This document shows, piece after piece, positions 3,198 through 25,420 of a DNA stretch of 25,420 nt. This DNA is from a virus, in the IMG/VR virus record IMGVR_UViG_3300032282_002373, positions 1-25,420 of that record; one strand, written 5' to 3'. Both the position numbers and the translations under genes were made by a program. Below the pieces are notes generated by a model, which saw only the letters and a program-made list of their open reading frames with translations, was not told the DNA's origin and made no database searches. Every line of letters starts with the position of its first letter. Position 1 is the first letter of the stretch.

Positions 3198-3199
3198 AG

Positions 3200-3758: not shown

Positions 3759-3765
3759 GAACTAC

Positions 3766-5751: not shown

Positions 5752-5759
5752 GGAACATC

Positions 5760-6714: not shown

Positions 6715-6723
6715 GAGAAAGTT

Positions 6724-8528: not shown

Positions 8529-8608
8529 AAGGAGCACTTCATGAAGCAAAACTAGGTGTATGATTGTCAAAGGTTTAACAAACCTTGCAGGTAAAACAGG
8601 AGAAATAA
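8529..8608. other. Short intergenic gap with a small hairpin
   Basis: No gene is seen in these 80 bases. AAGGTTT (8570-8576) and AAACCTT (8580-8586) form a perfect seven-bp inverted repeat with a three-base loop. TATGAT at 8559-8564 resembles a -10 box, but no good -35 lies at the right distance. A promoter or operator for the 8609 gene is possible but unproven. A short Met-Lys-Gln-Asn frame at 8541 is too small to count. Confidence 0.5.
8570..8586. repeat. Seven-bp inverted repeat upstream of the 8609 gene
   Basis: AAGGTTT and AAACCTT are exact reverse complements separated by AAC. The element lies just upstream of the AGGAG ribosome binding site at about 8598 and just after a TATGAT box. 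It could be an operator or a leader hairpin. There is no U-run, so it is not a typical terminator. Confidence 0.55.
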
Positions 8609-9025
8609 ATGACTGAAAGCAATGAAGCCGCCACTATCCCGATGGATAAGTTGGCCCGGGTGTATCGCAAGATGCAGACAAAGATTCAGCAGATGACCGC
8701 CGTTTATGAGACGGAAGTTGAAGTGCTGAAGGCGCAGCAGGAAGTGGTTAAGACCGCCTTGAAAGACCAGATGCTGGCACTTGGCGTGAAGTCCGTCAAC
8801 ACGGCGGAGGGCACCGTCATCCTCTCAACGAAGACCCGCTACTCGACCCAAGACTGGGACGCGTTCAAGGAGTTCATGAAAGAGAATGACGCCCTCGATC
8901 TGTTGGAGAAGCGCATTGCGCAGACCAACATGGCTACCTTCCTGCAGGAAAATCCGACCCTTGTGCCGCCGGGTCTCAATAGCAATAGCGAGTACGCAAT
9001 CAGCGTACGCAAACCAACCAAATAA
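8609..9025 (+). CDS. Conserved phage protein with coiled-coil N-terminus
   Basis: This is a 138-residue protein. Residues 12-58 form a likely coiled coil (LARVYRKMQTKIQQM, VYETEVEVLKAQQEVVKTAL). The second half begins GVKSVNTAEGTVILSTKTRYSTQDWDAFKEFM and ends FLQENPTLVPPGLNSNSEYAISVRK. From general knowledge this second half is a pattern met in many phages of Gram-negative hosts next to single-stranded DNA-binding and recombination genes, usually unnamed. No enzymatic motif is seen. A role as a DNA metabolism partner is inference from position. AGGAGA with seven bases of spacing supports the ATG at 8609. Confidence 0.75.
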   Translation: MTESNEAATIPMDKLARVYRKMQTKIQQMTAVYETEVEVLKAQQEVVKTALKDQMLALGVKSVNTAEGTVILSTKTRYSTQDWDAFKEFMKENDALDLLEKRIAQTNMATFLQENPTLVPPGLNSNSEYAISVRKPTK

Positions 9026-9040
9026 CCAAAGGAAAATCAA

Positions 9041-10009
9041 ATGAGTAATGTTGCTCTCTTCAACCCCGGCCAAGTGCCGGCCTTCGCTCGCAAAGCCGAG
9101 TTGTCTAACATGGCTAAGTCCCTCGCAGGGGGCGGTGGTGGCGGTGGTGGACTTCGCGTCAGCATCAAGGGCGGCGTGTTCCGTCTGGTCAACAACGGCA
9201 AAGAGGTGACGGCAATTGATGACCGCCATCTGGACATCGTGCTGGTCAAAGCAGCCCCCAAGGTAGCGCGAGTGTTCTACGCCAAGAGCTACGACTCCGA
9301 GAACACATCGGGTCCAGACTGCTGGTCACCTGATGGCGACACGCCCAGCAACGAGTCCACCAGCAAGCAGGCTTCGCGCTGTTCTGAGTGCCCCAAGAAC
9401 ATAGCTGGCTCAGGTCAAGGTCAGAGTCGCGCATGCCGATATCAGCAGCGTCTGGCTGTGGTGCTCGAGAACGATATGAGCGGGGGTGTGATGCAGTTGT
9501 CGCTGCCGGCTACGTCCATCTTTGGTAAGGCAGTTGAGGACAACCGTCCGCTGCAAGAGTATGCCCGCTGGCTCGTCGCTCAGAACATCAACCCCGAGGC
9601 TGTCGTCACCCGCATGCGGTTCGACACCAAGTCCGAGAGCCCCAAGCTGTACTTCAAGGCGCAGCGCTGGCTGACAGACGACGAGTACGAAACCATCTTG
9701 GAGCAAGCGGCTTCTGATGCCGCGCTCAAGGCCGTCACGATGACCGTGGCGAAGATGGACAACGTAGTGTCGAAGCCCCTCGAGTTGGCCGGCAAGCCCC
9801 CCGCCAAGGTTAAGCCCATCCCTGCTCCCGTAGTGGAAGAGGAAGAAGAGGCTCCCCCGCCTAAAGCCAAGAAGGCCAAGCCTGCCCCCGCACCCGTAGC
9901 GGAAGACGAGCCTGATGAGCCTGTCGTGCGCCAAGAAGTCCCCAAGAAACCCACGGCTCCCGCCAAGGGTACGCTGGCTAGTATGGTCAGCGACTGGGAC
10001 GACGAGTAA
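9041..10009 (+). CDS. Candidate single-stranded DNA-binding protein
   Basis: This is a 322-residue protein. An N-terminal segment ends in an eight-glycine run (residues 30-37). A probable OB-like beta region follows (RVSIKGGVFRLVNNGKEV..IVLVKAAPKVARVFYAKSY). Four cysteines (Cys94, Cys114, Cys117, Cys132) could bind zinc, and a globular part runs to about residue 240. The last 80 residues are a low-complexity Pro/Ala/Glu/Lys linker ending in MVSDWDDE, an acidic tip like the protein-interaction tails of SSB proteins and T7 gp2.5. The replication neighbourhood supports an SSB role, but sequence family membership is not certain. AAGGAAA precedes the ATG, and a strong terminator follows the stop. 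Confidence 0.7.
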   Translation: MSNVALFNPGQVPAFARKAELSNMAKSLAGGGGGGGGLRVSIKGGVFRLVNNGKEVTAIDDRHLDIVLVKAAPKVARVFYAKSYDSENTSGPDCWSPDGDTPSNESTSKQASRCSECPKNIAGSGQGQSRACRYQQRLAVVLENDMSGGVMQLSLPATSIFGKAVEDNRPLQEYARWLVAQNINPEAVVTRMRFDTKSESPKLYFKAQRWLTDDEYETILEQAASDAALKAVTMTVAKMDNVVSKPLELAGKPPAKVKPIPAPVVEEEEEAPPPKAKKAKPAPAPVAEDEPDEPVVRQEVPKKPTAPAKGTLASMVSDWDDE

Positions 10010-10014
10010 CTTGC

Positions 10015-10039
10015 GCAGGGGCTTCGGCCCCTGCTTTTT
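10015..10039 (+). terminator. Rho-independent terminator after the SSB candidate
   Basis: GCAGGGGC (10015-10022) and GCCCCTGC (10027-10034) form a perfect eight-bp GC-rich stem closed by a stable TTCG tetraloop. A run of five T residues (10035-10039) follows. This is a textbook intrinsic terminator five bases after the stop codon. It should end or reduce transcription before the helix-turn-helix gene, whose ATG lies only four bases after the T-run. Confidence 0.95.
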
Positions 10040-10042
10040 GCT

Positions 10043-10321
10043 ATGGCCTACCAACCACACCTGATTGCGCTGATCAAGGCACAGCGCCTGACCCTTGGCG
10101 TTCGCCTTGGACGTTGGGCTGTGTTCCTTGATTTGCCCGCTGCCAAGATTGCACTAGCGATAGGCGCTACCCGCCAGTCCGTGTACAACTGGATGAAAGG
10201 CGGCGAAGTATTCGTTGCGTACCGCCCTGCGGTTACGCGTGTCATTGAATGTATGCAGTCGTCCAAGACGGCTGAAGAAGCATGGGGGAAGATATGCACG
10301 GAATTCGACCTGAGAACTTGA
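10043..10321 (+). CDS. Small helix-turn-helix DNA-binding protein
   Basis: This 92-residue protein has a clear helix-turn-helix at residues 31-52 (LPAAKIALAIGATRQSVYNWMKGG), preceded by RLGRWAVFLD and followed by a short helical C-terminus. The AIGATRQSVYNW segment is like the Cro/C1-type recognition helix. From family knowledge it may regulate the switch of phage operons. The start is unusual. The ATG at 10043 directly follows the terminator, and no Shine-Dalgarno sequence is seen; the only AGGGG lies inside the terminator stem. Either translation is weak or leaderless, or it depends on read-through and an unrecognised start. The gene overlaps the 46-residue gene. Confidence 0.78.
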   Translation: MAYQPHLIALIKAQRLTLGVRLGRWAVFLDLPAAKIALAIGATRQSVYNWMKGGEVFVAYRPAVTRVIECMQSSKTAEEAWGKICTEFDLRT

Positions 10322-10434
10322 GTGATGAAGAGCTTGTGCGTTACGCATGGCTAACAGGCCCCGCACAACTTACCCCTGATTGGGTTGCGGAGTTGATCAA
10401 GCGCCTTGAGCACAAGCTCGACGATCTGAAATAA
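10294..10434 (+). CDS. 46-residue conserved small phage protein
   Basis: This gene runs from ATG at 10294 to TAA at 10432-10434 and encodes MHGIRPENLSDEELVRYAWL...WVAELIKRLEHKLDDLK. Helical peptides with LSDEELVRYA and a C-terminal W..ELI.RLE..L pattern are familiar from many phage genomes. It is therefore likely real despite its length. GGGGGAAG lies about five bases before the ATG. The gene starts inside the helix-turn-helix gene in another frame and fills the gap before the primase-helicase. The function is unknown. Confidence 0.68.
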   Translation: MHGIRPENLSDEELVRYAWLTGPAQLTPDWVAELIKRLEHKLDDLK

Positions 10435-10447
10435 CACAAGGAACGCA

Positions 10448-13400
10448 ATGAAACCGCTTGAGTTTCTAGCGGATGTTCTGCCGTCTCCGGGTCACGGATG
10501 GTACTGTGCGGCGGAACTAAGCTCATCAAAAAAAGAGCACGTGTTTGTTGACGGTGTCGACGCGGTGAAGCCCACAATCAAACGCTGGCTTGATCGCAAA
10601 CGCGACATCTACTTTGCACTGGCAACATTCAAAGACAACGTGGGGGGCCGCAAGGCTACCAACGCGGCCTACATCAAGGCCATCTTCATCGACATGGACG
10701 GCTACGCATCCAAGAAGGCTGCAGCACTGGCGCTGTCTGCATTTCTGGAGAAGACAGGACTGGACGAGTTCGGCACGCCGCACATCGTCGGCTCTGGTGG
10801 GGGCCTGCACTGTTACTGGGTACTGACCGCACCCGTGGACATCGCGACATGGAAGCCGATAGCGGAGAACTTCAAACGTCTGTGTAAACAGGAGGGTCTG
10901 AATATTGACCAGACGGTCACCGCCGACGCAGCGCGGGTGCTGCGCATACCCAGCACGTTTAACTTCAAGGCGAAGTACTCGGAGCCACGCCCGGTTCAGT
11001 TCCTTGCGCAGGGCAGCGGGCCAATTGATCTGAAGCGCTTTGGCGCAACAATCCGTGGGATGTTGACAGAGGCGTTCGCGCCGGCCAGCAATGCGTTCGT
11101 GGCAACCAGTGTAAATCTGCCCGGAACCCGGCCAAGCAAAGCACAGACTGCACGGTCTGCTGCAGCAGAAGCCATGATGAACAACAGCGTCACACGGTTC
11201 GAGCCTATCTGGATAAAGTCCGAGAAGAGCATGGGGTGCGGGCAGCTTGAGTTCTACATAAAGAACGCGGAGCAAGACGGCATGGAGCCGCTGTGGCGTG
11301 GGCTGCTGTCATGGGCCAAGGTATGCGACGACGGACTGGAGCACTCCACCAAGCTGACCGCTCTGCATCCGTACACCATTGACCGAATGCACCAGAAACT
11401 GTCAGAGATCAAGGGGCCGTACCCCTGCATCAAGATGGACAGCGAGAACCCGGGCGTGTGTCCCAAGTGTCCGCACTGGGGGCAGATCACCAACGCACTG
11501 GCGCTAGGGCGGGAGGTACGCACTGATAACCGGGAGAAGGAGATAGAGATTCCGCTGCAGGCGGGGGACGACACCACGGTAGACATGGACGCGGAGTACC
11601 TACAGGATGACCTGACAGAGGAGTCAGACGAGTCCTCGACACCGCAGAATGTCCGCACTCGAAAAGCAACGCGCCCAACCCCACCACGCAACTTCAGCTA
11701 TGGGGAACACGGCGGCGTATTCGTGGATATCAAGGAGAAAGACGCTACGGGCGTGGAGATCAAGACACAGGTGTCGGTGCTGCCGTATGACCTGTTTGTC
11801 GTCGACATGCTGCGTATGGATGAAAAGGAGCACTATGCACACTTAATGGCAATCAAGAAGATAGGCCAGACTGGCGAGTCCAAGCTGACCGAGTACACCC
11901 CCGTCATCATGCCGAGTAAAGCGGCAGTATCAAAAGAGGAGTTAATAAAATGTCTAGCATCACACAACATCTACGCTGCAAGAGGGGCCGTCATGGACGG
12001 TCACCTCTATAACTACGTGAGGGCCTGTATCGAGGAGTCCGCGCTGTTGCGCAAGGCGGTGGACGTTCCTATTCAATTTGGCTGGCAGAAGGATCGCTCC
12101 TTCGTTTACAACAACCGTGTGTTCCGTCGCGACGGCACAGAGATCCCAGTCCCGATGCCCGGGCTGGAGAACATCAACCGCGGCACCAATAGCAAGGGCA
12201 CTATCGAAGGCTGGCGCAAGCCGTGGCAGTTACTGATCGAGAAGAAGATGGACACCATGCTGGCGCTCTGTCTGGACAGCTTCGGCTCTCCGCTCATGCA
12301 GTTCTCGGACTACGAGGGTTTTGTCTGGCACATCGGCTCGACGGGCTCCGGCACGGGCAAGTCGCTGACGCTCAGCTTGAAGGCCGGCGTCTGGGGGCAT
12401 CCTATCCGCTACCGCACAGGTAAGGGAACATCGCCGGTTGCCATGCAGCAACGCGCTGGACTGCTCAACAGCATGCCGCTGCTGATCGACGAGATCACTA
12501 CCAAGACCCGCAACGATACGGAGTGGGCTCCAGCGTTCATCTTCGACATCTCTGAGGGGCAAGGCAAGGAGCGCATGGAGTCGGGTACGAACAAGGAGCG
12601 TATCAACAACAGCACGTGGGCGCTAACCTGTACGCTGACATCCAACACGCACATGACCGACATCCTGACGGGTGCTCGGAAGCATTCATCTCACGGTGAG
12701 ATGATGCGTATGCTGGAGTGGACGCCCTCCAAGGAACTGGAGTTCAGCGAACGTGAGCGCTTGACGCTCAAGGAACTGCGCCGGAACTACGGCGTGGCGG
12801 GTGAAGCGTGGGTGCGGTGGCTGGTGCAGAATCAGGAGATTGCTCGGGCAGTGTGGCTGCGGACTCACGAGGAGCTACGTGTGCTGCTGGGGTTCACCGA
12901 TGAAGAGCGGTACTGGCATGCGGCCTGTACGTCGACGGTGGCGGCAGGCATCCTGATCGGCAGCAGCTATGCGAATCTGCTGGACGTACCGATCAAGTCT
13001 GTGATCAAAGCGCTCAAAGCTTTGGTGGTAGATGCCCGGATCGCACACGTGAAGTCAGCCCGCAATGCCGAGGATGTGCTGAACACGTTTACCCGTGAGT
13101 ACTATGGCCGGTTCGTGGTTGTGCGCAAAGACGCCCACAACAAGCTGCTGGCTGAGATGGGGCGCGATGTGACTGGCAAGACCAGCACGCGGAACACGGT
13201 GATGGCCCGTATTGAACATGGTACGCGTCACGCTGGATTCGTCGAGTACTACGTGGAGGAGCAGATACTCAAGCAGCACTGCGCGTCAATGAGCTTCGGG
13301 TTCTCGGACTTCCGACGACAGCTTGAGGCTATGTCTGAGGAGGGTTACAACGTGCGCTTTGGCGTCAAGAAGGATATGCTGGCGTACACCGACGGCCCGT

Positions 13401-13486
13401 CACTCAGGGTGAATGTGATGCACATCAGCATTCCGAAAGACCGCTACGATGGCATGGAAGATAGCCTTCCCTTGGGAGACGCTTGA
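10448..13486 (+). CDS. Primase-helicase (AEP-like primase plus P-loop ATPase)
   Basis: This 1012-residue protein combines two replication activities. The N-terminal archaeo-eukaryotic-type primase domain has IFIDMDGYA (Asp82, Asp84), GSGGGLHCYW (His121) and DAARVLRIPST (Asp160, Arg166). A cysteine-containing segment follows (Cys264, later PCIKMD and GVCPKCPHWG with Cys338 and Cys341), which may bind zinc. After an acidic, poorly ordered linker (about 360-420), the C-terminal helicase resembles the DUF927 group. It has Walker A GSTGSGTGKS (Lys638), Walker B LLIDEI (Asp681, Glu682) and then TLTSNTHM as a sensor-like segment. AAGGA supports the start. The linked activities suit leading-strand priming and unwinding beside the polymerase; the exact family names are my reading of motifs. 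Confidence 0.9.
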   Translation: MKPLEFLADVLPSPGHGWYCAAELSSSKKEHVFVDGVDAVKPTIKRWLDRKRDIYFALATFKDNVGGRKATNAAYIKAIFIDMDGYASKKAAALALSAFLEKTGLDEFGTPHIVGSGGGLHCYWVLTAPVDIATWKPIAENFKRLCKQEGLNIDQTVTADAARVLRIPSTFNFKAKYSEPRPVQFLAQGSGPIDLKRFGATIRGMLTEAFAPASNAFVATSVNLPGTRPSKAQTARSAAAEAMMNNSVTRFEPIWIKSEKSMGCGQLEFYIKNAEQDGMEPLWRGLLSWAKVCDDGLEHSTKLTALHPYTIDRMHQKLSEIKGPYPCIKMDSENPGVCPKCPHWGQITNALALGREVRTDNREKEIEIPLQAGDDTTVDMDAEYLQDDLTEESDESSTPQNVRTRKATRPTPPRNFSYGEHGGVFVDIKEKDATGVEIKTQVSVLPYDLFVVDMLRMDEKEHYAHLMAIKKIGQTGESKLTEYTPVIMPSKAAVSKEELIKCLASHNIYAARGAVMDGHLYNYVRACIEESALLRKAVDVPIQFGWQKDRSFVYNNRVFRRDGTEIPVPMPGLENINRGTNSKGTIEGWRKPWQLLIEKKMDTMLALCLDSFGSPLMQFSDYEGFVWHIGSTGSGTGKSLTLSLKAGVWGHPIRYRTGKGTSPVAMQQRAGLLNSMPLLIDEITTKTRNDTEWAPAFIFDISEGQGKERMESGTNKERINNSTWALTCTLTSNTHMTDILTGARKHSSHGEMMRMLEWTPSKELEFSERERLTLKELRRNYGVAGEAWVRWLVQNQEIARAVWLRTHEELRVLLGFTDEERYWHAACTSTVAAGILIGSSYANLLDVPIKSVIKALKALVVDARIAHVKSARNAEDVLNTFTREYYGRFVVVRKDAHNKLLAEMGRDVTGKTSTRNTVMARIEHGTRHAGFVEYYVEEQILKQHCASMSFGFSDFRRQLEAMSEEGYNVRFGVKKDMLAYTDGPSLRVNVMHISIPKDRYDGMEDSLPLGDA

Positions 13487-13620: not shown

Positions 13621-16600
13621 TCAGTCGACTGACTTCGCCTCTTCCGTCGCCTTGCGCACCATCTCCGCAAGACGAATCTTCATCTGACGGGTGTCATCCA
13701 GCTTAGTGCGTTTCTCTTCGCCGCTTAGGTTAGATGCCCGGATGGCGTTCTCAAACTTGGTGATCTGCTGCATGTTCGAGATAAAGTAGTCCGCTACGCC
13801 GGCCTGTGCAAATTCATCGCTGCGCTTGCTAATCAGTTCCTTGGCTTCCGCAACACGCCCTTCAGCCAGCATGCGGTCAACGGTGGTCTTAACTTTCTTG
13901 ACATCGTCCATGCGTTCATACACAGCATCGATAATGCCGCCGGCATCGTTGGGCTGGAACGAACTGCCGATCACCGGCATGTCCGATAAACGCTTCACAG
14001 TCTTCTCTGGAGACTCCCCGGTAGGCACGCCCATACTGAGCGCCTGCATGAGTGCCAGCCCCATCGTGCCGGTGTAGCCGCTTACCAGCGCTTCAATCTT
14101 GATTGGGGATAACCCCAACCCCGAGCCCATCATTTTGGCAATCTCGCTGGTGCCCTCGCGGAACTGCTGCTCAGGAAGCACCGCCTGCTCACGCCTAGAA
14201 AGAATATCCCGCCCGGTGTAAAACGACTTGCCAAGTGCAGCTTCAATCCCGGGCTTGAGCGCTTGTGGGATGGGGGGCGTAATTGGTATGTTGACGCCTT
14301 TGTACGGCATAGTTGCCATACTCGTCCCGCCCGGAAGCGTTTGCAGAATGATGGTATTGAGCGCCTTAACCGCCTCTTCCGCGCCGTGCTCGTTTGTCAT
14401 CGAGTTGTATAACGCCTCGGGCAACGCTTTGAACAGGTAACCAATTTCATACGGGATTGGAACCTTGATGGGCTCGTCAATACCGGCAATGCGGATGAAC
14501 CAGTTCCCGTACTTCTGTTCAGGAGTCGCGTTCTTGTATGCCTCGTCATCCTGCATCATGGCAGCATACGCCAAGGACGCACCAAACATAAGCGCCCCAC
14601 GGGTGATCAGCTTCTCCTGAATCTTCAGGCGTTTGTCGAATGGCAGCTTGCCCGTCAGCGCCTTGTACAGCACGTTCAGACCTTGGATCTGCGAGTTGAA
14701 GAACGGGATCAGCGCATTTGCCATGTGGATGCTAGGGGACGCACCGCGCTTGTTAAAGTTCATCGACTCCAACGACATCAGCGTGGCTTCCATCTCGGAC
14801 AACCCCTGCTTGATGTAGCTGTTGTACTGTGCGCGGCGGGTCGCGGCATCGGCTTCCATGTTGAGCGCCTCGGCCCTCGCGATCAGCGATCCGAGGTTAC
14901 CCTTGCCCGACAGCATGTCGTTCAGAATCTTGGTCATGGCCTCGCTGCTGTTGCCGCCCGCAAAGATCTGCCCGCCTGTGATACCGCGCTTCTCTAGCGT
15001 AGACTTGGTAGTGGATTTGCCAAGCTGCCCCAACGCCCCAAGGACCGGGGCAAAGTCAGCACCCGACAGGAGCGGAGCGGCCAACGAGTCACGGAATATC
15101 TGGCGTGCAGCATATGTGGGGCTCAGCGTCACTGCTCTGCGCAATATGGTTGATGGCAAGCCCAGCATTCGGACAAGCACGGGCATCTGAGTTGGGATGC
15201 CTTGCATGCCCTTGACCAAAAGATCCGCAGGAACGCCTGCCGTGTCGGTGTCTACGATGGCGTGGTAGTCGTCACCATCCATTTTAAATCGCACTGTTTT
15301 TGGATCCGCAGTACCCGGCCCCCGCCGAATATGCGCTAATCCTATGTCTTGAAGCTCGTTCATGGAGTTCTTGGTAGCCAGATTGCGCAGCCCCATGTCC
15401 GTAATCAAAGCTGTGTTCTGAACGGAGCTTGTTAGGAAATCAAGGATCGGACGGTCACCGCCAACCAGCTCGTGCAGGTATGGCTGCTCAGCAATACTGC
15501 CAATCCGAATGGGCGTCTCACCGCCGATGGTGAGTGACGCTACGCCATCCTTTTCCCGGTAGAAGGGAATGTAATCGTTCTCCTTGGTCAACCGTGCCGC
15601 GTGCTCTTTCGATATGGCCCCCGACTGCGCAAGGAAGCCGACCATGTTGCGGTTGTACTCGTTGTACACCTCGCGGGCCTGTTTGAAGTTTTCCTCCAGC
15701 CCGGGCGTAGCGCGGATGCTTGCCATAGCACTGTTAAGCTGGGCCTCGGTCAGTTCGTTGCCAAAGTGCAACGTCTGGAACCCTTTGTTCTTGGCCCGGA
15801 TGCCGGCCAGATACATCGTGAATAAGCGGTTGGCTGCGTCTGGACTGCCGGCGGGGGCCTTCTTTAAGATGTCCACAACCTGCTGGATGTTGGCCCCGTC
15901 AACGCTTTCGACAACGTACTCAGTGCGCCCGTCAGGCCGCTTCTTGGCAACCCGTTGAATGGCACCGTTGGCAACCGACTGCGCGGTGTAGTTCATCCGC
16001 TGGTCGTACATACGCAGGTAGTACATCATCTGCGAGCCCTTGAGCGCTTCCATCCCCTTGGATACTCGCTCCAGTGGTGCAAACCGATCCACCAACTGCG
16101 TCTCAAGACCAAGGAAACCGCCCGATGCTGAGCGTATCCTGTCAATGACACCGCGCTCCTTGGCAACAAACTTGTCAGTGATGGCCCCTGCTGCAGCAAG
16201 CCCCGGGTTGGCGTAGCTAACCAGTTTTGGATAAGCAATCCCTGCGGGGGACATGGTGATGCCGGCCTTCGCCGCCGTGGTCGAGGGCGTGAACAGTTTG
16301 TAGATGTTCCCCACCGATGCATCGGCCATGTTCTCGGTTTTGAACCCGATGAAGTTCAGAAGCGCCCGGTAGATCTTTTGCAGCAGATTGGTGCCATGCC
16401 ACGTACGCGCAGCCAGCTTGTCCCGTAGCACTTTGTTTGACATCACTTCGGATGCAAACTCATGGATGTCTTTCTTGCCGTACTCGTTCTCAAAAGCACT
16501 ATCGTTCTGGATAGACTTGAACAGCTTCTCCAGTTCTGCCCGGGCCGCACGTTGCTCTTTAGTAAGCTGCGACGGATCCACCGTCAGCAACCGTGTGGTC

Positions 16601-19600
16601 ACCGCGTGGGTTATCTCGTGCAGCAGCGCCTCTTCGGTCAGCGCTTGGGAGTCGATGGTAACGGTGTTGGTCTCAAAGTCGTACACGCCCTCGGCACGCT
16701 TGCCCTTGTGCATCAAGTTGTCTTCGACGCGCAGCTTGGTCCGCATGACCAGAGGGCGCAGGTTCTTGACCAGCTCCTTGACGAACGGCGAGTTCGAGTT
16801 GGCCCCCACGGCATCCAGCGCATCGAGCACACGCCCATCCTGCACAGCCTCCAGTGCCGTGCCAGTCAGGTCGACGGTGTCGCGCAGTTCATAGTCAGGG
16901 CTGTTCTCTCGAAGCAGCTTGGCACCGGACTTCGCTTTTGTACTTAGTTTGGTCTTGCCCGTCTCACCCTCCAACTCACCCGCCGCAGCAATTTCTTTTC
17001 TAATGTCGCGGATGCGTTTAGCCACATCCTTCAATGCCTCCGAAACAAGCGGATTTTTAATGCCTAAGAAGCTTGAAGAAATTCGCGTAGTCGTTCGTTT
17101 TGCCGCAGGCACGCGCTGTTTCATTTTGGCCGCTGCCGTTAGGTACTTTTGCAGGTCTGCCTGCAAAGAAACCGTTTCCGCATCGCTTTCAAGCCCGATC
17201 CCTGTATCCCCACGCGCATTTGCAACAGCCAAATCTTCGCGTGCGTTTGAAAGGTCTCGTTTGATAAGGCGCTGTTCCTCTAAAAGCGCCAGCCGCTTTT
17301 GCTCCGGTTGGACTTTCAGCGCATTAAACCGTGCTACCGCTTGGTCAATAGCTTTTTCTGCGGTAACAAGCGTTTGTACTTTTTCAAAGGCAATATCTTG
17401 TAGTTGATCCGCTGCAAAAACAGCGTCATATCGCGCCTTCTGCTCTTGTTTGACTTTGTTGGCCGCTTCCATATCGGCTTTGCTGATCTCCACATTGCGT
17501 TGCTTGACCCCGCGCTTTTCAGTTAAGCGCATGTCCGGTTTTGTATACGTGCGCTTTTCGGTTTCAGGCAATCCGATCTGAGACGCGTCCCCCGTATACA
17601 GAACTTTAGCGGGCTGTATCTCTTTGCGTGATACAGGGCCGAGAGCACGCCCCTTTGTCTTGTCAAGCTGGGCCTGCTCTTCTTCCGACACCGCCTGCCC
17701 ATACGTTTCCCGGGTCAGCTTGTCGAGCGTCTCAAGGCGCTGTTCAGACGTCTCACGCGTGTCGATAGATACGCCGCGCAGTTTGGCAAGTTGCTTGTCA
17801 CGCTTGAGAAGCTGGGCCTCCGCTTTCTTGCGCCAAGCCTCTGTTTGCTTTCGCTTTTCCTCTGAAAGAGAGGGGTCTTCTAGACTTGCTTTGTGCTTTT
17901 GAACTAGCGCCGACTCTTCGCCGCGAAGACGGTACGCCGTCGCGTAGCTCGCGTCCTTGTCCTCCGCCCGCTTACGAAGTTTTGCAACATACGTGGTCAA
18001 CGCTACTTGTGCGGCATCGCGTTCTGCTTGCGACAGATTGGCGTCGTTGACCATGTCCTCAAGCGCCTGTCGTTTAAGCGGGGCATCATCAATCTGTCGC
18101 AGCATCTCACGCCGCCGCTCGAACGACACACGTTGAGATGGCAACGCAGCAAGCTCTTCCTCTAGCTTGCGCTGCTTACCGGCGGCTTTGTCTCGTTCTT
18201 CGGACTTTTTAGCATCTGCAAGTTGGTTAGCCTTTCTTGCTGCCGCTTGCGCAGTGTTCTCCGCTTTTGCGGTCTCCTGTTCTTTTTCTTCCGCAAACAA
18301 GTCTTCCTGTACGGCAGGTGCCGTTTTTTTCTCAACAGGCGCTTCAGCGGTTTTTGGTAGCGGCATCAGCCTGTTGAGCGCGTTGCGTGCGTCGTGTCGC
18401 GCCCCGCCACTATCGGAATCGTTGATTGTGTCTAGTAGGCTTTTAGCAACCTTGGCTTTCTCAAGCCGCGCCTTGGCGGCTTTCATCTCTTCAGAAACGG
18501 TTAGCGTCTCTTTAATCTTCGTATCGTATTTTGCCGAGGTTTCGGACACGCGTTGCAAAAGCGTGTTGTATGCACCTTGAAGATTGGCAAGTTTTGTAAG
18601 CGCGGGCTTAGCGCCACCACGGGCCTCGGGCTCCGCTTTTTTAACCGCCGCTTTAGCCCTCGCCGCCTGTTCTTGCAAACGCTGAATGGTGTTTGCCAAC
18701 GGCTGCAGCGGGATGCCTGCATCTGCCGCAACTTTGTCTATGGCTTGTCTTGCCGCGGCATATTCTTTCTCAATCTGCGCAGTGCGTTCATCCAGTGCTT
18801 TGGAGGCGGGGCGAACTGTTGCCGCACCTTCTTCCGCTATGCCAAAATAGGATTGCAGGACTTGAGTGGCACCACCAATACCCTGACCAACATCGCTCAA
18901 AAGCCAATTAGCCACAGTACGCCGCGCATCCGCGTCGGCCATGATCTGTGCTTGATTTTCTCCGATAAGACGAAGCAGCCCCGTTTCCTTTTTGCTCAGA
19001 GTTTGCTTTGCACTTTTTGCGAGCATACCCTGCAGTTCACGCGGAGAGACTTCCTGTTGTGATTGGCGTTCAATCTGTGCAAGCTGCTGCCGAAGATACC
19101 GGTCCGTCTCCGGCGCTGCGCGGCCTTGTCGCACACTGTTGAGCCACTCCGCAACATCCTCCCGATAGGGGCTCAGTGCCGGCAGGTTATCGTCGATCCG
19201 GTCCAGTAAAGCCGCCTGCGCTTCTGTCAGGCTGGGCAGACTGCGCACACGCTCTATTTCTGTACGAAGCGCTGCGCGAGACGCAGGCGCTGGCGAAAGC
19301 TGTCCGACTGTTTGCGTACCGGGCATTTCAAGCGTGCCCTTGATCTGCGGCCCTTCCGCATCCTCAAACCCACCTTGCCTGCGAAGGTAGCTTATGCGCT
19401 CCGTAATGGCGCGTGCAGCCCCCTTTCGACCTTCCTGCCGCGCAGCTATGAACTCCTTGCTCAGCCGCTTCAGTTCATCCTTAACCGCCCGCAGCGCTTC
19501 TGGAGTTTTTTCGGAACCGGTGCGCGTCAACGGTGTCTTTACCCCCGGCTCAACACCGGGAATCAGCATCTGGCTTTTATCGGTGCGTACGCGCAGTTCT

Positions 19601-21519
19601 GCAATTAGCTCCCGGGCGTCATCGCGCCGGCCTTCCTTACGCGCTTTATTGATTGCGGCTTTAATCTCGTTGATTGGCCGTGTGCTCGGCGTGCCGGCCA
19701 CCGCTTTGGGCGTGCGGTCCATTGCCGCAAACGACTGATCGAGCGTGCGGGGCTCTGTTGGTTCAACCGTCGTGTCTTCAACAACTGGAGTTACCGGTGC
19801 TGCTGCAATTGCTGCCGCCTTCTTGCCCTTTGCTTTCTTTGCGGGAGCCGCTTCTGCTCCCACAGGCACAGTTACTTCGCCGGTCAGTTCTTCCTGTGCC
19901 AGTCGCTGCTGAAGCATCTCCAAGAAAAGCGCATTCTCTTCCGGCGTCAGCCCCGGCACTTGCTCGTTGTTTGCAACCATCTCGGCAGCAACTTCAGGCG
20001 AGCCCATGATGGCTTCTACGTGCGACTGGATCTCTTCCATCCGCGCAGGGGCCGTGAACGGTGCGGGTTCCGAAACAATCGCCGCTTCCTCTACTTTCTT
20101 ACCCCGTTTTGTCGCTGCAACAGGTGCGGTCGGCATCGGCGTAACAGTCGTAGGCGGCGGAGTGACGACGGGCGCAACGGCAGTCGGTATGGCTGGTACA
20201 GCGGCAATAGCCGCAGGTGCAACGGCAGGCGCAACGGCAGGAGTAGCCGATGGACGGAAGTCAACCCCGGGGTGTAGCTGGCGTACACGGCGGATCTCGT
20301 CCACCAGCGGCTGCATAGTCTCTTTGGCGTAAGTGTCCCGGGCTACACGCGCATCCTTGGCGTCTGCTACGGACAGCGGGTCTTTCTCTGCGCTCAGCGC
20401 CTTGACGGCTTGATTGAGCCGTTGCATCTCAACGTTGGCAGCAACGTAGTCCGCCCGCAGCTTTGCTGCATATGCAGGATCCGCATCTGCAATCTGCTTT
20501 TGCTGCGCTGCAGCATCGTCTTGCTGTTGCTGAAGTTCCGCGGCCTTGGCGGCTTCTTCCTGTTGCTTTGCCGCAACATCCATCCGGGCACCGCCACGCT
20601 CCGACAGCCGGCCAATGGCACCGAGCGGTGCCAGCAGCCCTACCTGATACGCAGTCTCACCGTATTCTTTAAGCGCGTCGGGGCTCGAGAGCGACAGGCC
20701 CGCCTGTGCCCGCTCCAGCATCTGCTGTGCAACTTCTGTGGGAATCTCGGCCAGAGCGCCAACACCCACACCTTTGGCAAGCACCGTCAGCAACCGTTCG
20801 TCAGCCAGCTTAGCTGCACCCGCGGCACTGCGACTCAGCAGCGCCTCCATAGGGATGCCAGTCAGTTTCTGCACCAGCTTGCCGCCAAATGGAATCAAAC
20901 TTGAGGCTACGTCCAATCCTGCCTGCGGAATAGCTGCGGCTGCAGCCCGACCTGCATTTACGGGAACGCCTTCTTGCGCTTGCCGCTCAATGTTGCCACC
21001 AAACTGCTGTACCAGAGAAGGTAACAACGCACCGCCAATACCGCCAACTGTTGCACCAATGGGGCCAAGTGCAGAACCCGCCATCGCCCCGAGTCGCGCA
21101 CTACCTGCCATTGCAGCTAGGTTAGGTGCTTGTTCTGCAAGTGCCGCTGGGATCTGGCTTAGCGCCTCGCCAGCCGCTGATAGAACGCCATCTTTGTTGT
21201 ACGCGTCTTTGACTTTCTGCAGGCTGACTTGGTCAGCGTATTTCTTGTTTATCGCTTCGCCGCGCTCAAGTCCGGCGCGTGCTGCCTCTTCGGCAGCCCC
21301 GGTAGCGGCCCCAAGGGCTGTACGCCCGCTGGAGATAATGGACTCAACGCCCTTGCCTATAGCAGCGCCAATCCCAGTTTTTGGTTTGGGCGCTGCCGCT
21401 TCCTCGGGGGGTTGTGCAGCCATTAGCTGCTGTGCAATTCTGGCTAACTGTCTCGCATCCTCTACATTACCCGCTGCATCTGCATTGCGCAACGCTGTGA
21501 GGACTTGATTAAGTTCCAT
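13621..21519 (-). CDS. Giant virion-type polyvalent protein with internal zincin motif
   Basis: This protein of about 2632 residues is the largest in the window. Residues 1-300 are Ala/Gly-rich with a hydrophobic stretch near 130-165 (LGAMAGSALGPIGATVGGIGG), which could touch membranes. Residues 300-1560 are charged, Ala/Lys/Glu-rich and largely coiled coil. Near 1560-1740 lies a zincin-like domain with LLHEITHAV (His1634, Glu1635, His1638) and HEFASEV (Glu1687 or Glu1691), a possible third ligand. The C-terminal third is globular and includes SIHMANALIPFFNSQIQGLN, which I read as LPD38-like, a large polyvalent protein associated domain. Such giant proteins are thought to be injected with the DNA. 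The ATG at 21519 has AGGTG before it; a GTG at 21528 lies within that same sequence. Confidence 0.85.
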   Translation of the reverse strand: MELNQVLTALRNADAAGNVEDARQLARIAQQLMAAQPPEEAAAPKPKTGIGAAIGKGVESIISSGRTALGAATGAAEEAARAGLERGEAINKKYADQVSLQKVKDAYNKDGVLSAAGEALSQIPAALAEQAPNLAAMAGSARLGAMAGSALGPIGATVGGIGGALLPSLVQQFGGNIERQAQEGVPVNAGRAAAAAIPQAGLDVASSLIPFGGKLVQKLTGIPMEALLSRSAAGAAKLADERLLTVLAKGVGVGALAEIPTEVAQQMLERAQAGLSLSSPDALKEYGETAYQVGLLAPLGAIGRLSERGGARMDVAAKQQEEAAKAAELQQQQDDAAAQQKQIADADPAYAAKLRADYVAANVEMQRLNQAVKALSAEKDPLSVADAKDARVARDTYAKETMQPLVDEIRRVRQLHPGVDFRPSATPAVAPAVAPAAIAAVPAIPTAVAPVVTPPPTTVTPMPTAPVAATKRGKKVEEAAIVSEPAPFTAPARMEEIQSHVEAIMGSPEVAAEMVANNEQVPGLTPEENALFLEMLQQRLAQEELTGEVTVPVGAEAAPAKKAKGKKAAAIAAAPVTPVVEDTTVEPTEPRTLDQSFAAMDRTPKAVAGTPSTRPINEIKAAINKARKEGRRDDARELIAELRVRTDKSQMLIPGVEPGVKTPLTRTGSEKTPEALRAVKDELKRLSKEFIAARQEGRKGAARAITERISYLRRQGGFEDAEGPQIKGTLEMPGTQTVGQLSPAPASRAALRTEIERVRSLPSLTEAQAALLDRIDDNLPALSPYREDVAEWLNSVRQGRAAPETDRYLRQQLAQIERQSQQEVSPRELQGMLAKSAKQTLSKKETGLLRLIGENQAQIMADADARRTVANWLLSDVGQGIGGATQVLQSYFGIAEEGAATVRPASKALDERTAQIEKEYAAARQAIDKVAADAGIPLQPLANTIQRLQEQAARAKAAVKKAEPEARGGAKPALTKLANLQGAYNTLLQRVSETSAKYDTKIKETLTVSEEMKAAKARLEKAKVAKSLLDTINDSDSGGARHDARNALNRLMPLPKTAEAPVEKKTAPAVQEDLFAEEKEQETAKAENTAQAAARKANQLADAKKSEERDKAAGKQRKLEEELAALPSQRVSFERRREMLRQIDDAPLKRQALEDMVNDANLSQAERDAAQVALTTYVAKLRKRAEDKDASYATAYRLRGEESALVQKHKASLEDPSLSEEKRKQTEAWRKKAEAQLLKRDKQLAKLRGVSIDTRETSEQRLETLDKLTRETYGQAVSEEEQAQLDKTKGRALGPVSRKEIQPAKVLYTGDASQIGLPETEKRTYTKPDMRLTEKRGVKQRNVEISKADMEAANKVKQEQKARYDAVFAADQLQDIAFEKVQTLVTAEKAIDQAVARFNALKVQPEQKRLALLEEQRLIKRDLSNAREDLAVANARGDTGIGLESDAETVSLQADLQKYLTAAAKMKQRVPAAKRTTTRISSSFLGIKNPLVSEALKDVAKRIRDIRKEIAAAGELEGETGKTKLSTKAKSGAKLLRENSPDYELRDTVDLTGTALEAVQDGRVLDALDAVGANSNSPFVKELVKNLRPLVMRTKLRVEDNLMHKGKRAEGVYDFETNTVTIDSQALTEEALLHEITHAVTTRLLTVDPSQLTKEQRAARAELEKLFKSIQNDSAFENEYGKKDIHEFASEVMSNKVLRDKLAARTWHGTNLLQKIYRALLNFIGFKTENMADASVGNIYKLFTPSTTAAKAGITMSPAGIAYPKLVSYANPGLAAAGAITDKFVAKERGVIDRIRSASGGFLGLETQLVDRFAPLERVSKGMEALKGSQMMYYLRMYDQRMNYTAQSVANGAIQRVAKKRPDGRTEYVVESVDGANIQQVVDILKKAPAGSPDAANRLFTMYLAGIRAKNKGFQTLHFGNELTEAQLNSAMASIRATPGLEENFKQAREVYNEYNRNMVGFLAQSGAISKEHAARLTKENDYIPFYREKDGVASLTIGGETPIRIGSIAEQPYLHELVGGDRPILDFLTSSVQNTALITDMGLRNLATKNSMNELQDIGLAHIRRGPGTADPKTVRFKMDGDDYHAIVDTDTAGVPADLLVKGMQGIPTQMPVLVRMLGLPSTILRRAVTLSPTYAARQIFRDSLAAPLLSGADFAPVLGALGQLGKSTTKSTLEKRGITGGQIFAGGNSSEAMTKILNDMLSGKGNLGSLIARAEALNMEADAATRRAQYNSYIKQGLSEMEATLMSLESMNFNKRGASPSIHMANALIPFFNSQIQGLNVLYKALTGKLPFDKRLKIQEKLITRGALMFGASLAYAAMMQDDEAYKNATPEQKYGNWFIRIAGIDEPIKVPIPYEIGYLFKALPEALYNSMTNEHGAEEAVKALNTIILQTLPGGTSMATMPYKGVNIPITPPIPQALKPGIEAALGKSFYTGRDILSRREQAVLPEQQFREGTSEIAKMMGSGLGLSPIKIEALVSGYTGTMGLALMQALSMGVPTGESPEKTVKRLSDMPVIGSSFQPNDAGGIIDAVYERMDDVKKVKTTVDRMLAEGRVAEAKELISKRSDEFAQAGVADYFISNMQQITKFENAIRASNLSGEEKRTKLDDTRQMKIRLAEMVRKATEEAKSVD

Positions 21520-21528
21520 AAACCGCAC

Positions 21529-24069
21529 CTATTGTAAATATTTATCCACCAGTGGATTGCCAGTTTTGCCACCAGCAGCCCCCATTGTATCCGCAAGCTC
21601 TTGGTAATTAGTAAGCAAGTCTGCGCGAACTTGCCGTTTTGCTGCAGCCATTTTGACGGGATCCAGTTTCAACATTGCGTCCTTGTTAAGGTCCGCATAC
21701 GCCGCCGCCAGTTCTTTACGGAATTGCGCCAGTGGCTTGTCTTCTTCAGCTTTACGGGCTGCTTCTGCGTCAAGGTAGTTGCCGTGTTTCTCGTAGTATT
21801 TAGACATCGCTCCCGACTGTGCAATCTCAGCATCCGTTTTCCGTCGGTCATACTCCACTTTCTCCCTAGCTTGTTTGGCCGTCAGTGCTGCAACACCCGC
21901 TTCACCCACATTCTGTAGAGCATATTGCGACTTGCCCGCCATCAACTGCAAGCCAAACATCAGCAGGTCTTCGTAGCCAAGCCCGCTACGCTCTGCTTTA
22001 GGTATTTCGGCTTTAGCCTCTGCCACAGCTTCTTTCTTGACCTCGGGGGTAAGTGCTGCAGGTGCTGGAAATGTTGGAAAGCCCCTTGTGTCATCTCCAG
22101 ATGTTCTATCAAAAGGTATAGCATTTTCTGAGCTACTAGCCCCAGAACCAGTACCCGCGCCAGCCGCAGCAATTGCAGGTATAAGTGCAGCACGCCCTCG
22201 ACCAGCTTCTCCAATTGCTGCGCGTGCAGCGGCCATTCTAGACACGGCGGGTACTTCCGCTGCAACTGCCGCGCCTGCGGCTTCAGGCAACGCAGCTATC
22301 CCCGTGCTAGGCGCGGCTGCGCCTTCTTCTGCCGCGGCTGCGGTTGCGCCTTCTTCTGCTGCGGCTGCGGGGGCGGCTCTTTCTGCGGCCCTAGCTTTTG
22401 CTCTAGCCTCGGCAGCGGCCCTGAGTGCGGCTGCGTCAGGGGCCAATGTGGCTATGCCGGTTGCTGCTGGTTTTGGCGGACCTTTTGCTGCGGCCGCGTC
22501 TTGTGCGGCTTGTGCTGCTGCTTGTTGTCTTAGTTGTGTGGCTTGATTTACGCGTGCTAACCCTTGTAGAGGGGGCGCTGGCGCGGCTGCGGGGGCGGGG
22601 GCGGGTTTAACCGCCGGAGGGTTACCTGCGGCCACTTGCGCTGGGGTTGGTACAGTTCGTACTGGTGGGGCTACCGGTGCTGCTGCGGGTGCTGCTGCGG
22701 GTGCTGCCGCCTCGGGTGCTGCTGCTTTTGGACCTCGCCCCAAACGCCCCAAAAACCCTAGTGCTGCGGGGGCAGCTTCGATAGCGCCTTGCACAATAGC
22801 TCCGGTAGCCGGGTTTACGTTCTCCGCCAAGAACTCTCCCGCTGGTTTAGCTACATATTTGCTTAGCGCAGCGCCGGGTGCATTTAGAGCACCTAAAACT
22901 TTTTTGCTGTCCGCAGTGTACTCAGGGTTATAGCCCAAGTAGTCCTCTACCCTTTTTGCATAGTCCGCGCCCTGTCCTTCTGCCCCCGGCAACACTGAAC
23001 CTGCAATCCCCGCATACCCGCCTATAATTTTTGCCAACGGATTCTGCACCAAAGACCGTGCTACTTGCCCCGCCGTCTGTAATTTGTCGCCTGCCCCCGT
23101 TTGCTGGCGCAAAGCTTGCAAATCGGCTGTTGTTGCATCCCGCGTACCAGCGGCTCTTTGCGCTTGATCTGGGGCCATTGGATTGGCCGCGGATGCGGTG
23201 GGTAACTCTTCTGCTTGTGCAGCCCCCATTGGGAGCACTTTTGTTACTGCATTCGCCATTTTCTTAGCGTAATCTGGATCAGTAGCATAGGCCCCCAGCC
23301 GCCCCTTTTGCAACCCTTTGGTGAATTGCTTAACGTCTCCACCCGCACCTACGGCGTCAGGAAAGTTGCGTTTAATCTGCGACACATAGTCTTGCATGAA
23401 CGCTTCAGGCGACTCATAGTTTTTATACTGCGAACGACTTTTCTCGATGTTATCGTAAGCCGCAGTCCCTTTGCCTTTAATATTTCCAAGGTTGTACTTT
23501 CCGGGGATCCCCCGTCCCCAACCCGTTTCATGCCCCCATTGGGCAATTATTAACCCGGGTTCAACGCCAAGGGCTTCGCCGGCTTGTTCTGCCAATGAAC
23601 GGTATTTAGTTGCAAAGTCTTGAACAGGGTCTGTTTTAGATTTTCCCCCACCAGAAAACCCAACAATCCCCCCGTCGGCCATACCGGACAGGCTGCGTTC
23701 GGGTAGAGCGCCTATGCCCATATCTTCGGGTAGGCGGGAGTCCATATAGCCGCCGTCTGCAGCCATTCGGGTTTGCCCTTGTGGCGGAGGCATCCTTTGC
23801 GGCATACCCTGTGGTGGCATACCCTGTGGTGGCATGCTCGGTGGCATCCTTGGCTGGTTCATAGCTTGGATAGCTTGTTGAACCACAGGCGCTTGTACTG
23901 TAGGGTCTGCTTCTTTGCCCTCAGTAAGTTCTTTGGCAATGTTGTTTACAAACAACGCCATTGATACAGCAATAGGATCATCTGCATGGTCTGCGGCGTA
24001 TTTCTGCCGGCCTGCCGGACCCATCCGGGCAAGCATCTTTTGCATGTCACCAATTCGATCATCAAACAT
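21529..24069 (-). CDS. Virion-associated protein with FlgJ-type glucosaminidase domain
   Basis: This is an 846-residue protein. After a helical N-terminus and a MPPQG repeat (about 75-98), residues 148-278 form a glucosaminidase-like lysozyme fold. EALGVEPGLIIAQWGHETGWG contains the candidate catalytic Glu181, then come YNLGNIKG, KNYESPEAFMQDYVSQI and GAYATDPDYAKKMANAV. This matches the order of the FlgJ/N-acetylglucosaminidase family, which cuts peptidoglycan. The middle (about 430-690) is a low-complexity Ala/Pro region, and the C-terminus (about 700-846) is helical with AKQAREKVEYDRRKTDAEIAQ. The likely role is local cell-wall opening during DNA entry, inferred from its place beside large virion proteins. 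There is no signal peptide. AAGGA supports the ATG at 24069. Confidence 0.85.
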   Translation of the reverse strand: MFDDRIGDMQKMLARMGPAGRQKYAADHADDPIAVSMALFVNNIAKELTEGKEADPTVQAPVVQQAIQAMNQPRMPPSMPPQGMPPQGMPQRMPPPQGQTRMAADGGYMDSRLPEDMGIGALPERSLSGMADGGIVGFSGGGKSKTDPVQDFATKYRSLAEQAGEALGVEPGLIIAQWGHETGWGRGIPGKYNLGNIKGKGTAAYDNIEKSRSQYKNYESPEAFMQDYVSQIKRNFPDAVGAGGDVKQFTKGLQKGRLGAYATDPDYAKKMANAVTKVLPMGAAQAEELPTASAANPMAPDQAQRAAGTRDATTADLQALRQQTGAGDKLQTAGQVARSLVQNPLAKIIGGYAGIAGSVLPGAEGQGADYAKRVEDYLGYNPEYTADSKKVLGALNAPGAALSKYVAKPAGEFLAENVNPATGAIVQGAIEAAPAALGFLGRLGRGPKAAAPEAAAPAAAPAAAPVAPPVRTVPTPAQVAAGNPPAVKPAPAPAAAPAPPLQGLARVNQATQLRQQAAAQAAQDAAAAKGPPKPAATGIATLAPDAAALRAAAEARAKARAAERAAPAAAAEEGATAAAAEEGAAAPSTGIAALPEAAGAAVAAEVPAVSRMAAARAAIGEAGRGRAALIPAIAAAGAGTGSGASSSENAIPFDRTSGDDTRGFPTFPAPAALTPEVKKEAVAEAKAEIPKAERSGLGYEDLLMFGLQLMAGKSQYALQNVGEAGVAALTAKQAREKVEYDRRKTDAEIAQSGAMSKYYEKHGNYLDAEAARKAEEDKPLAQFRKELAAAYADLNKDAMLKLDPVKMAAAKRQVRADLLTNYQELADTMGAAGGKTGNPLVDKYLQ
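22290..22740 (-). repeat. Ala/Pro low-complexity coding repeats
   Basis: This stretch inside the glucosaminidase protein is built from imperfect GCT/GCG/GCC alanine codon runs. Near-identical blocks occur at about 22311-22372 (coding EEGATAAAAEEGAAA) and short GGTGCTGCTGC repeats at 22677-22725. It encodes a flexible linker between the enzyme domain and the helical C-terminus. Such repeats are prone to length change by slippage. The long plus-strand open frame over it is a by-product. Confidence 0.7.
23801..23845 (-). repeat. 15-bp tandem repeat coding MPPQG
   Basis: GGCATACCCTGTGGT occurs twice head to tail (23801-23815 and 23816-23830), followed by a diverged third copy (23831-23845). On the minus strand this codes for a proline-rich MPPQGMPPQG linker between the N-terminus and the glucosaminidase domain. 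The exact duplication suggests recent slippage. Confidence 0.85.
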
Positions 24070-24078
24070 TTTGATTCC

Positions 24079-25155
24079 TTATGCCATGCTGTGGATAGCC
24101 AACGCAACAAGCCCTTGTGGCTTCGATTTTACCAGCCCGCCTTTGGCGTAACTCCCAACCATACCGCCGTTTGCTTTAAACCCGCCAGAAGCACCAAACG
24201 CGCCCACCGTAGCCGCGCCCAAGCCACCTAGCTGGCTCAACATGCTGGGCGGGGCTTGGTAGTTGTACATGGTGCTACCGGCATTGGTGGTCGGCGCTCC
24301 CCGCAAGATGTCGGACATGAACCCAATCTGCTTGTACGGGTAGTTCTGAGAACTTTGAAAATCTTGGTACTGATTGTTTAAGCCGCTTTGAACCTGTTGC
24401 TGCTGCTGAGCGCCCAGTTGGTTCTGCATCTGGTTAATGCCCATATTCTGGGAGTACTGCATATTGCCAAGGTTACCCAAGGTGTTTGCCCCGGTCAGCG
24501 CCGTCTGCATCCCCTGCAAGCCAAGCCCCGCACCATACTGCCCTTGCTGGGCGTTTAAGTTGGCCGCGGCTTGACGCGCTTGCTGCTCAGTATTGAATTG
24601 ATTTTGCGCTTGTCCGTACGCGGTGTTTAGCCCTTGGGCTTGGATGTCACCCTTTTGCAACGCCAAATTACGTGCGGCTTCTGCGTCCATGATAGCGGCC
24701 CGAGACCCCCCAAATGCGCCTTTTTGAGTTTGATCTGCCTGCCGTCCAGTTGATGCAATATCCGCTTGACGCTGCGCTTCCCGTTGCTGAATGTCGACTA
24801 CATTTTGCATGTACGGATTCATGGCGTTACTAGCCACTCCGGTATCACCAAACGACTTAGCCGCGTAGGGGTTGTATGTGTAGCCTGTGTTTAAAGCGCC
24901 TAGCGAAGCTAGTCCCGCCGTGGCCGTGGCATCCTGCAACTGAGGCTGGGACTGCATGAGTGCCGCATTGTCGTAAGACATCTGCTGCAAGGGGCTGAAC
25001 TGCGCTACTCGATCCCCCATGTACTGCATGTAGGGATTTTGGGTTGTATCAGACAGTGCTGCGGCTTGCCCCAGCATGTCTTCCGCATAAGGCGCTAGTT
25101 GCGGTGCAAAACCGTACTGATTTTGTTGTACGACTGTTGATGTTGCGTCTGCCAT
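24079..25155 (-). CDS. Gln/Ala-rich virion-type protein (putative internal/ejection protein)
   Basis: This is a 358-residue protein without enzyme motifs. It is rich in Gln, Asn and Ala. An N-terminal region (APQLAPYAEDMLGQAAAL...PYMQYMGDRVAQFSPLQQ) leads to NPYMQNVVDIQQREAQRQADI and QKGAFGGSRAAIMDAEAARN. A glutamine-rich helical part (QLGAQQQQQVQSG) follows, then a Gly-rich C-terminus with ANGGMVGSYAKGGLV. From general knowledge, proteins with the NPY.QNVVD...AFGGSR pattern recur next to large tail or ejection proteins in podovirus-like phages, without a firm function. It is the first of three consecutive minus-strand genes of increasing size. AAGGA precedes the ATG at 25155. Confidence 0.72.
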   Translation of the reverse strand: MADATSTVVQQNQYGFAPQLAPYAEDMLGQAAALSDTTQNPYMQYMGDRVAQFSPLQQMSYDNAALMQSQPQLQDATATAGLASLGALNTGYTYNPYAAKSFGDTGVASNAMNPYMQNVVDIQQREAQRQADIASTGRQADQTQKGAFGGSRAAIMDAEAARNLALQKGDIQAQGLNTAYGQAQNQFNTEQQARQAAANLNAQQGQYGAGLGLQGMQTALTGANTLGNLGNMQYSQNMGINQMQNQLGAQQQQQVQSGLNNQYQDFQSSQNYPYKQIGFMSDILRGAPTTNAGSTMYNYQAPPSMLSQLGGLGAATVGAFGASGGFKANGGMVGSYAKGGLVKSKPQGLVALAIHSMA

Positions 25156-25164: not shown

Positions 25165-25420
25165 TTATGCGGGGAGGTATTTGTGTGCTTTGGAATCCAC
25201 AGCCACACTGTTTTTGCCGGTAGTTTTACGGCGGTTGGCTTGTATGCGGTCCATCATTTTGTACAGTGCCCGTGCGCCTGCCTCTGTGGAGCCGTTGCCC
25301 AGTTCAGACACAATTCTCGCAGGAACCACGAACTCGCCATCCGCAAGCCGTGCCGGCTGTCGGCCTTGCCCAATACTTGCCGGTTTTCTGTCTGTCACGC
25401 CATCACCGGGGCCACGCAAG
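25165..25420 (-). CDS. C-terminal part of a structural-type phage protein (partial)
   Basis: The reading frame runs off the right edge of the window, so only about 85 C-terminal residues are seen. They read GPGDGVTDRKPASIGQGRQP..LADGEFVVPARIVSELGNGSTEAG..LYKMMDRIQANRRK and end in SKAHKYLPA. The pattern GPGDG.TD.......G..PA.LADGEFV.PA..VS.LGNGST.AGA..LY.MMDR is familiar from C-termini of uncharacterised structural proteins in phages. No start is visible: the first possible codon is TTG, inside a conserved segment. The gene ends nine bases before the start of the 358-residue gene, so it belongs to the same minus-strand operon. Confidence 0.75.
   Translation of the reverse strand, partial: LRGPGDGVTDRKPASIGQGRQPARLADGEFVVPARIVSELGNGSTEAGARALYKMMDRIQANRRKTTGKNSVAVDSKAHKYLPA

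Follow-up and report, generated by a model that had tools for sequence, protein, structure and literature searches.

The window analysed here is a stretch of 25,420 bases that makes up the stand-alone virus contig recorded as IMGVR_UViG_3300032282_002373. We collected 78 related viral loci, a non-random sample because they were found with patterns derived from the window protein; 49 proteins, the window's own included, carry both end modules described below and form the full-length set, in which near-duplicates are present and about 40 of the 49 are distinct. A giant gene is the last and largest member of a minus-strand cassette of three to four genes, laid out as follows:

25165–25419, minus strand: reading frame of 84 aa at the contig end, first gene of the cassette, conserved in 45 loci
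24079–25155, minus strand: protein of 358 aa matching phrog_4287, 'DNA ejection protein' (E = 6.7e-12), present in 46 loci
21529–24069, minus strand: gene of 846 aa upstream of the giant, with a glucosaminidase domain (PF01832) at aa 159–276 (E = 5.4e-18), its position conserved in relatives
21526–21530, minus strand: AGGTG, a ribosome-binding-like site by its sequence, six bases 5' of the ATG
13621–21519, minus strand: giant gene of 2632 aa, with its ATG at 21519 and its stop at 13621–13623

The open frame with a GTG start runs from 21528 down to 13621 and encodes 2635 aa, and the start at the ATG at 21519 gives 2632 residues plus the stop, which reproduces exactly the size given in the initial annotation. 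We preferred the ATG because AGGTG lies upstream of it, because the TAG of the preceding gene directly adjoins it, and because many homologues start at the same position. Residue numbers below follow the 2635-residue GTG frame unless the ATG is stated. The overall observation made earlier, that of a giant protein with an HExxH motif, was confirmed, with the gene on the minus strand.

The order of an ejection-protein family gene and a wall-hydrolase gene upstream of the giant is conserved in about 45 loci, and the virion-type cassette of the initial annotation is supported by neighbours that encode a 'DNA ejection protein' family member and a peptidoglycan hydrolase. Directly before the giant, relatives L019 and L013 carry an SLT domain (just below the Pfam cut-off in L013) and L018 carries GH108; other relatives have no recognised hydrolase in that gene. 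The wall hydrolase of the neighbouring gene is therefore itself exchangeable among glucosaminidase, SLT and GH108. A P22-type portal (PF16510) was not found in 12 relatives.

On the plus strand, a replication cassette at 3727–13486 encodes a family A DNA polymerase, a RecB-like exonuclease, an SNF2-type helicase and a 1012-aa DUF927 primase/helicase-like protein, and meets the virion cassette in convergent orientation near 13.5 kb; Rfam gave no match. The same replication cassette contains, at 5760–6050 on the plus strand, a 96-aa ImmA/IrrE-like protein (Peptidase_M78, E = 1.3e-5) whose HExxH reads HELTH. Homologues of this small protein occur in 51 collected loci, convergent to the giant gene, making it a second conserved small zincin in this phage group.

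The giant consists of a constant N-terminal module, a variable middle of about 1,200 residues, a zincin and a constant C-core of about 860 residues that ends in LPD38:

20521–21396, minus strand: constant N-terminal module, aa 45–336 in GTG numbering, from an alignment of 34; Ala/Gly-rich and predicted all-helical
16873–20520, minus strand: variable middle module, aa 337–1552, replaced wholesale between relatives, with no Pfam or PHROG family in the window protein
17209–18288, minus strand: highly charged helical stretch by composition, aa 1081–1440
16279–16872, minus strand: type I zincin domain of 198 residues, aa 1553–1750, from a profile and an alignment of 30
16606–16620, minus strand: HEITH, predicted metal-binding and catalytic motif, aa 1637–1641 (1634–1638 from the ATG), its H, E and H invariant in 30
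16447–16461, minus strand: EFASE, aa 1690–1694, with E1690 as predicted third zinc ligand, its E and F invariant in 30
13624–16197, minus strand: constant C-core, aa 1778–2635, from alignment with relatives
13969–14547, minus strand: LPD38 (PF18857), aa 2328–2520, E = 7.9e-32 and 111.3 bits against a cut-off of 27

Pairwise comparisons show how sharply the constant and variable parts are separated. The ends of the window protein are 72% and 78% identical to those of L005, with about 1,000 residues between them that have no detectable similarity. Relatives L073 and L074 have N-terminal modules that are 89% identical and C-terminal parts that are 91% identical, separated by about 1,800 unrelated residues, and their zincin classes differ; this pair apparently records a recent module exchange that replaced the middle and, with it, the peptidase class. 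The C-core is 34–95% identical across about 860 residues in 51 relatives, so that the large conserved C-terminal part reported earlier is real and includes LPD38.

The long coiled-coil region of the initial annotation corresponds to a charged helical stretch at aa 1081–1440. Its composition, with K/R/E/D/Q at 45–47% and G+P at only 3–8%, makes a coiled-coil-like reading plausible. The suggestion that the long segments hide further domains was not borne out: the middles of 40 relatives gave only scattered single matches, essentially nothing, in Pfam and PHROGs, and those of 25 relatives with a type I zincin gave zero matches in PADLOC. One of the 25 (alignment A4) has an FtsK-gamma DNA-binding domain in its middle (Pfam E = 2.6e-9; PHROG FtsK/SpoIIIE-like, 3.6e-9). 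In the window protein itself, no domain was recognised beyond the zincin and LPD38.

The N-terminal module was modelled with a mean pLDDT of 76 and had no Foldseek match in the PDB. Insertion of this module into a membrane is not supported, because hydrophobic 19-residue windows of canonical transmembrane type occur in only 9 of the 49 proteins. The model of the C-core is of low quality (mean pLDDT 63, pTM 0.42), and its Foldseek search against the PDB gave no match with E ≤ 0.001; the sole zincin in that PDB list, IrrE 3dti, has E = 2.6 and is not significant. Foldseek matches in BFVD are mostly other phage proteins annotated as polyvalent, and consequently assign no function to the C-core. 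In one relative, L076, the giant is split across overlapping frames (1–4650 and 4361–5578) near query residues 2222–2230, by a frameshift or a sequencing error.

The motif placed at residue 1634 by the initial annotation is HEITH, at that residue from the ATG, and it lies within a true domain. The only invariant columns of the 30-row domain alignment are H85, E86, H89, E138 and F139, that is, the zinc-site residues and one Phe. No Pfam or NCBIfam model fits aa 1553–1750. An AlphaFold model of aa 1549–1709 (pLDDT about 80–88) places strands at 59–63, 75–78 and 83–87, followed by a helix at 93–110 that carries HEITH and a helix at 149–158 that carries E1690; as modelled, this strand-helix-helix order is that of a zincin. 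Searched against PDB sequences, the profile of the domain matched the internal virion protein 9sfn chain G (5.8e-11), the PhiM1 gp48 tetrameric ejection protein (PDB 8vb2; 1.8e-9), the full chain of the N4 virion RNA polymerase (8.6e-7) and 23sg gp10 (4.4e-6). These are sequence-profile matches and not metal density; the zinc site is kept in the residue alignments with 9sfn, 8vb2 and N4. The profile also matched all 14 N4-like C-terminal regions tested.

A motif of the form HE(2-3)H was present in the middle of 49/49 full-length relatives, against 0.55 proteins expected after shuffling the same middles. This count, together with zinc-site residues that are, with one Phe, the sole invariants of the domain alignment, argues that HEITH is not a chance occurrence. 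Judged by its sequence, the giant holds a real zincin-type zinc-peptidase domain, and the predicted peptidase is likely to be catalytically active. A metal-dependent structural or regulatory element, in which the zincin fold would hold neighbouring domains in place or inhibit them and catalysis would be dispensable, has a precedent in the N4 C-terminal domain, which contains the HExxH subdomain, keeps the polymerase inhibited and is required for encapsidation (PMC12633501, PMC5512222). However, all intact domains keep the general-base Glu, a constancy that zinc binding alone would not demand; we consider such a non-catalytic role quite improbable.

The match to PhiM1 gp48 bears on a further possibility, namely that the domain breaches the cell envelope by acting on peptidoglycan. 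The PhiM1 authors annotated gp48 268–528 as endolysin/exotransglycosidase-like by BLASTP and DALI (PMC11440229), which would fit such an activity, but our profile aligns a complete zinc site (HEAAH + HEF) at gp48 379–511, and this alignment suggests that the 'endolysin-like' domain is a zincin. Moreover, a glucosaminidase, SLT or GH108 wall hydrolase is encoded in the adjacent gene, which makes envelope breaching the least likely of the alternatives, and a very remote one.

The type I profile (aa 1553–1750) was found in 29 of the 49 full-length proteins, each time with HExxH and the downstream E-F. A search for loss of the HExxH in homologues found zero cases in which the domain was present and these residues were gone. 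The remaining full-length homologues, about 40%, have, in place of the type I domain, a zincin of another class in that module: 18 of these 20 have an HExxGH domain (HELGH in one of them) and two have HEVG[TA]H. Compared with each other by hhalign, the two main zincin-class profiles proved to be related (probability 84.6%, E = 6.8e-6); the HExxGH profile additionally reaches two N4-like polymerases. On the C-core tree, the zincin class changes at least 9 times, against a shuffled mean of 18. Both classes occur in cultured phages: the HExxGH-class profile matches phiARM81mr, CF418P1, D274, PTXU04 and DC1, where the zincin of gp67 lies at 3571–3724 and is followed by the C-core, and MinM2 matches the HExxH class. 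The cultured relatives FGH and VvAW1 have HE[LM]AHYLD. Scans with D274 and MinM2, plus a scan of genome contigs, returned zero further relatives. In the giant reading frame of L056, the HExxGH match is split (1149–1314 and 1414–1558) by additional residues that give a weak TAT-signal-like match, so that aa 1149–1558 may contain an insertion into the peptidase.

Short relatives, whose middle is small or absent, do not have a zincin. Lederberg (1254 aa) and 13 similar contigs have only about 340–390 residues before the C-core, and Pony (1679 aa) and HTVC010P (504 aa) are further short relatives of this kind. The association between the presence of a zincin and a large middle is suggestive only, because the short forms represent few independent lineages. 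Taken together, these comparisons identify, at the sequence level, a new feature of this protein group: a predicted peptidase position that is filled in every full-length relative by interchangeable zincin classes.

Repeated exchange of this kind (at least 9 changes) is what would be expected of an arms-race module, and an injected zincin could be an effector that cuts some host protein in the cytoplasm, such as a transcription or defence factor, a possibility listed by Iyer et al. (PMC5512222). Yet pure cargo should sometimes vanish, and the zincin is missing in 0/49 full-length proteins although other parts of the middle vary freely; nor would an activity directed at the host have to stay in the module that precedes the C-core. 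We regard the effector role as rather unlikely.

We instead favour, at a probability of about 0.55 for the explanation as a whole, an LPD38-type internal virion protein that is ejected and whose zincin acts on the giant itself. The giant would travel packaged in the virion and leave it through the tail together with the DNA; after delivery and refolding, the zincin would sever the exchangeable middle from the N- and/or C-core frame, separating parts with different destinations, and cell-wall cutting would be the job of the neighbouring 846-aa gene product. The function appears tied to the protein itself because the kind of peptidase is replaceable, its presence is constant wherever the middle is large, and its active-site residues are strictly constrained. 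This pattern favours an obligatory role in handling the protein's own polypeptide, possibly by self-cleavage after ejection. That the own polypeptide is the main substrate, at whatever stage, is in our judgement slightly better than an even chance. Counting against the explanation, the zincin of several relatives lies about 700–850 residues ahead of the C-core and does not adjoin it.

The timing of such a cleavage is a separate matter. Iyer et al. proposed that such peptidases process their own protein, whether before packaging (as for P1 DdrB), inside the head or once injected, or that they act on host proteins (PMC5512222). If the zincin served maturation, it would trim virion proteins, the giant or others, before packaging or in its course, as P1 DdrB is cleaved before packaging (PMC5512222); however, the N4 virion RNA polymerase, with its homologous domain, is packaged whole (PMC5512222, PMC12633501), and we consider maturation unlikely. 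Burkholderia phage JC1 gp69 (4515 aa, LPD38 at 4195–4401) was detected, whole or cleaved, in CsCl-purified virions with 51 unique peptides (PMC9144972). Action after ejection is favoured, with low confidence, because the N4 relative is packaged whole, and the choice of after rather than before packaging is accordingly tentative. The same N4 evidence also counts against self-cutting as such: the polymerase is packaged unprocessed (PMC5512222), and no degradation is reported in the study of its structure (PMC12633501).

A broader proposition, which we put forward with reserve, is that the peptidase position is an obligatory part of this widespread group of injected phage giants, swappable, unlike the surrounding cargo, among at least three zincin classes and never empty where there is a large middle. 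It would reveal a universal delivery step, in which a carried protease would set the cargo free once ejected, common to N4-like polymerases and T7/PhiM1-like ejectosome proteins. The role of the common metallopeptidases in injected phage proteins is so far apparently a proposal. A position that is always filled, exchangeable in class and absent without cargo points to a peptidase in the service of the protein's own delivery, and the comparative pattern makes the known idea of self-cutting directly testable. It also links environmental giants to proteins of solved structure in the tractable phages PhiM1 and N4, the latter a phage of E. coli K-12 with a type I zincin, and to the E. coli phage PTXU04, whose zincin is of type II.

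By its domains, the window protein is a phage polyvalent ejection protein (LPD38-type) such as Iyer et al. described in 2017 (PMC5512222), and its assignment as a polyvalent zincin protein is very likely correct. LPD38 and the zincin are two disparate recognised domains, and the neighbours are late and virion-type, as the polyvalent claim implies. The earlier interpretation is partly supported: the zincin-like domain and the polyvalent character stand, with ejection-type neighbours and homology to virion-internal proteins in favour, and no further hidden domains turned up. The giant is probably carried in the particle of a short-tailed-type phage and injected with the DNA; the presence of the giant in the virion, inferred from the relatives JC1 gp69 and N4, and its ejection are likely by this analogy.

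Iyer et al. described metallopeptidases in 36% of polyvalent proteins, HEXXXH forms included (PMC5512222). Their proteins share with the window's the very large size, the late cassette, LPD38 and an HExxH with a downstream Glu, and the window protein differs in having a middle with no recognisable second enzymatic domain. A position occupied in all members by interchangeable classes, as in the window group, is not part of the statistics in that work. JC1 gp69 and its close kin DC1 gp67 (DarB-like, Lessievirus) likewise have LPD38 about 115 residues from the C-terminus and lie next to late genes, and DC1 gp67 also has its zincin before the C-core; they carry lytic transglycosylase, methylase and helicase domains, none of which is detectable in the window protein, whose wall hydrolase belongs to the neighbouring gene. 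Assignment as a DarB antirestriction protein was rejected, since the methylase and helicase domains were not found. P1 DdrB, compared through the literature only, is also a virion-associated polyvalent protein with a metallopeptidase, but its peptidase is C-terminal, it has a ParB-like domain and it is cleaved before packaging.

N4 gp50 and its Schitoviridae relatives are, like the window protein, giants encoded last of three ejection genes, with ejection inferred for the window's. The N4 order (16.5 kDa, 66 kDa, giant virion RNA polymerase) is comparable, and the N4 polymerase is itself ejected (PMC12633501); its zincin, homologous by profile comparison, precedes a large helical C-terminal region. 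The window giant was rejected as an N4-like virion RNA polymerase, as no polymerase family was found in its 2635 aa; the PF21894 match (E = 0.025) was too weak for the cut-off and did not lie in the middle. A homology between the C-core and the C2 domain of N4, plausible by eye, was also rejected (hhalign probability 0.8%, with reversed-alignment decoys close behind), which limits the N4 analogy to the zincin. PhiM1 gp48 (8vb2) and the 9sfn internal virion protein share the homologous zincin with its zinc ligands kept, within solved virion structures; they are half the size and have no C-core match, and the gp48 domain carries the endolysin-like annotation, unlike the zincin of the window protein. 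Proteins of this kind were already known, and the analysis adds a peptidase position that is always filled but interchangeable, together with a link to ejectosome proteins of solved structure.
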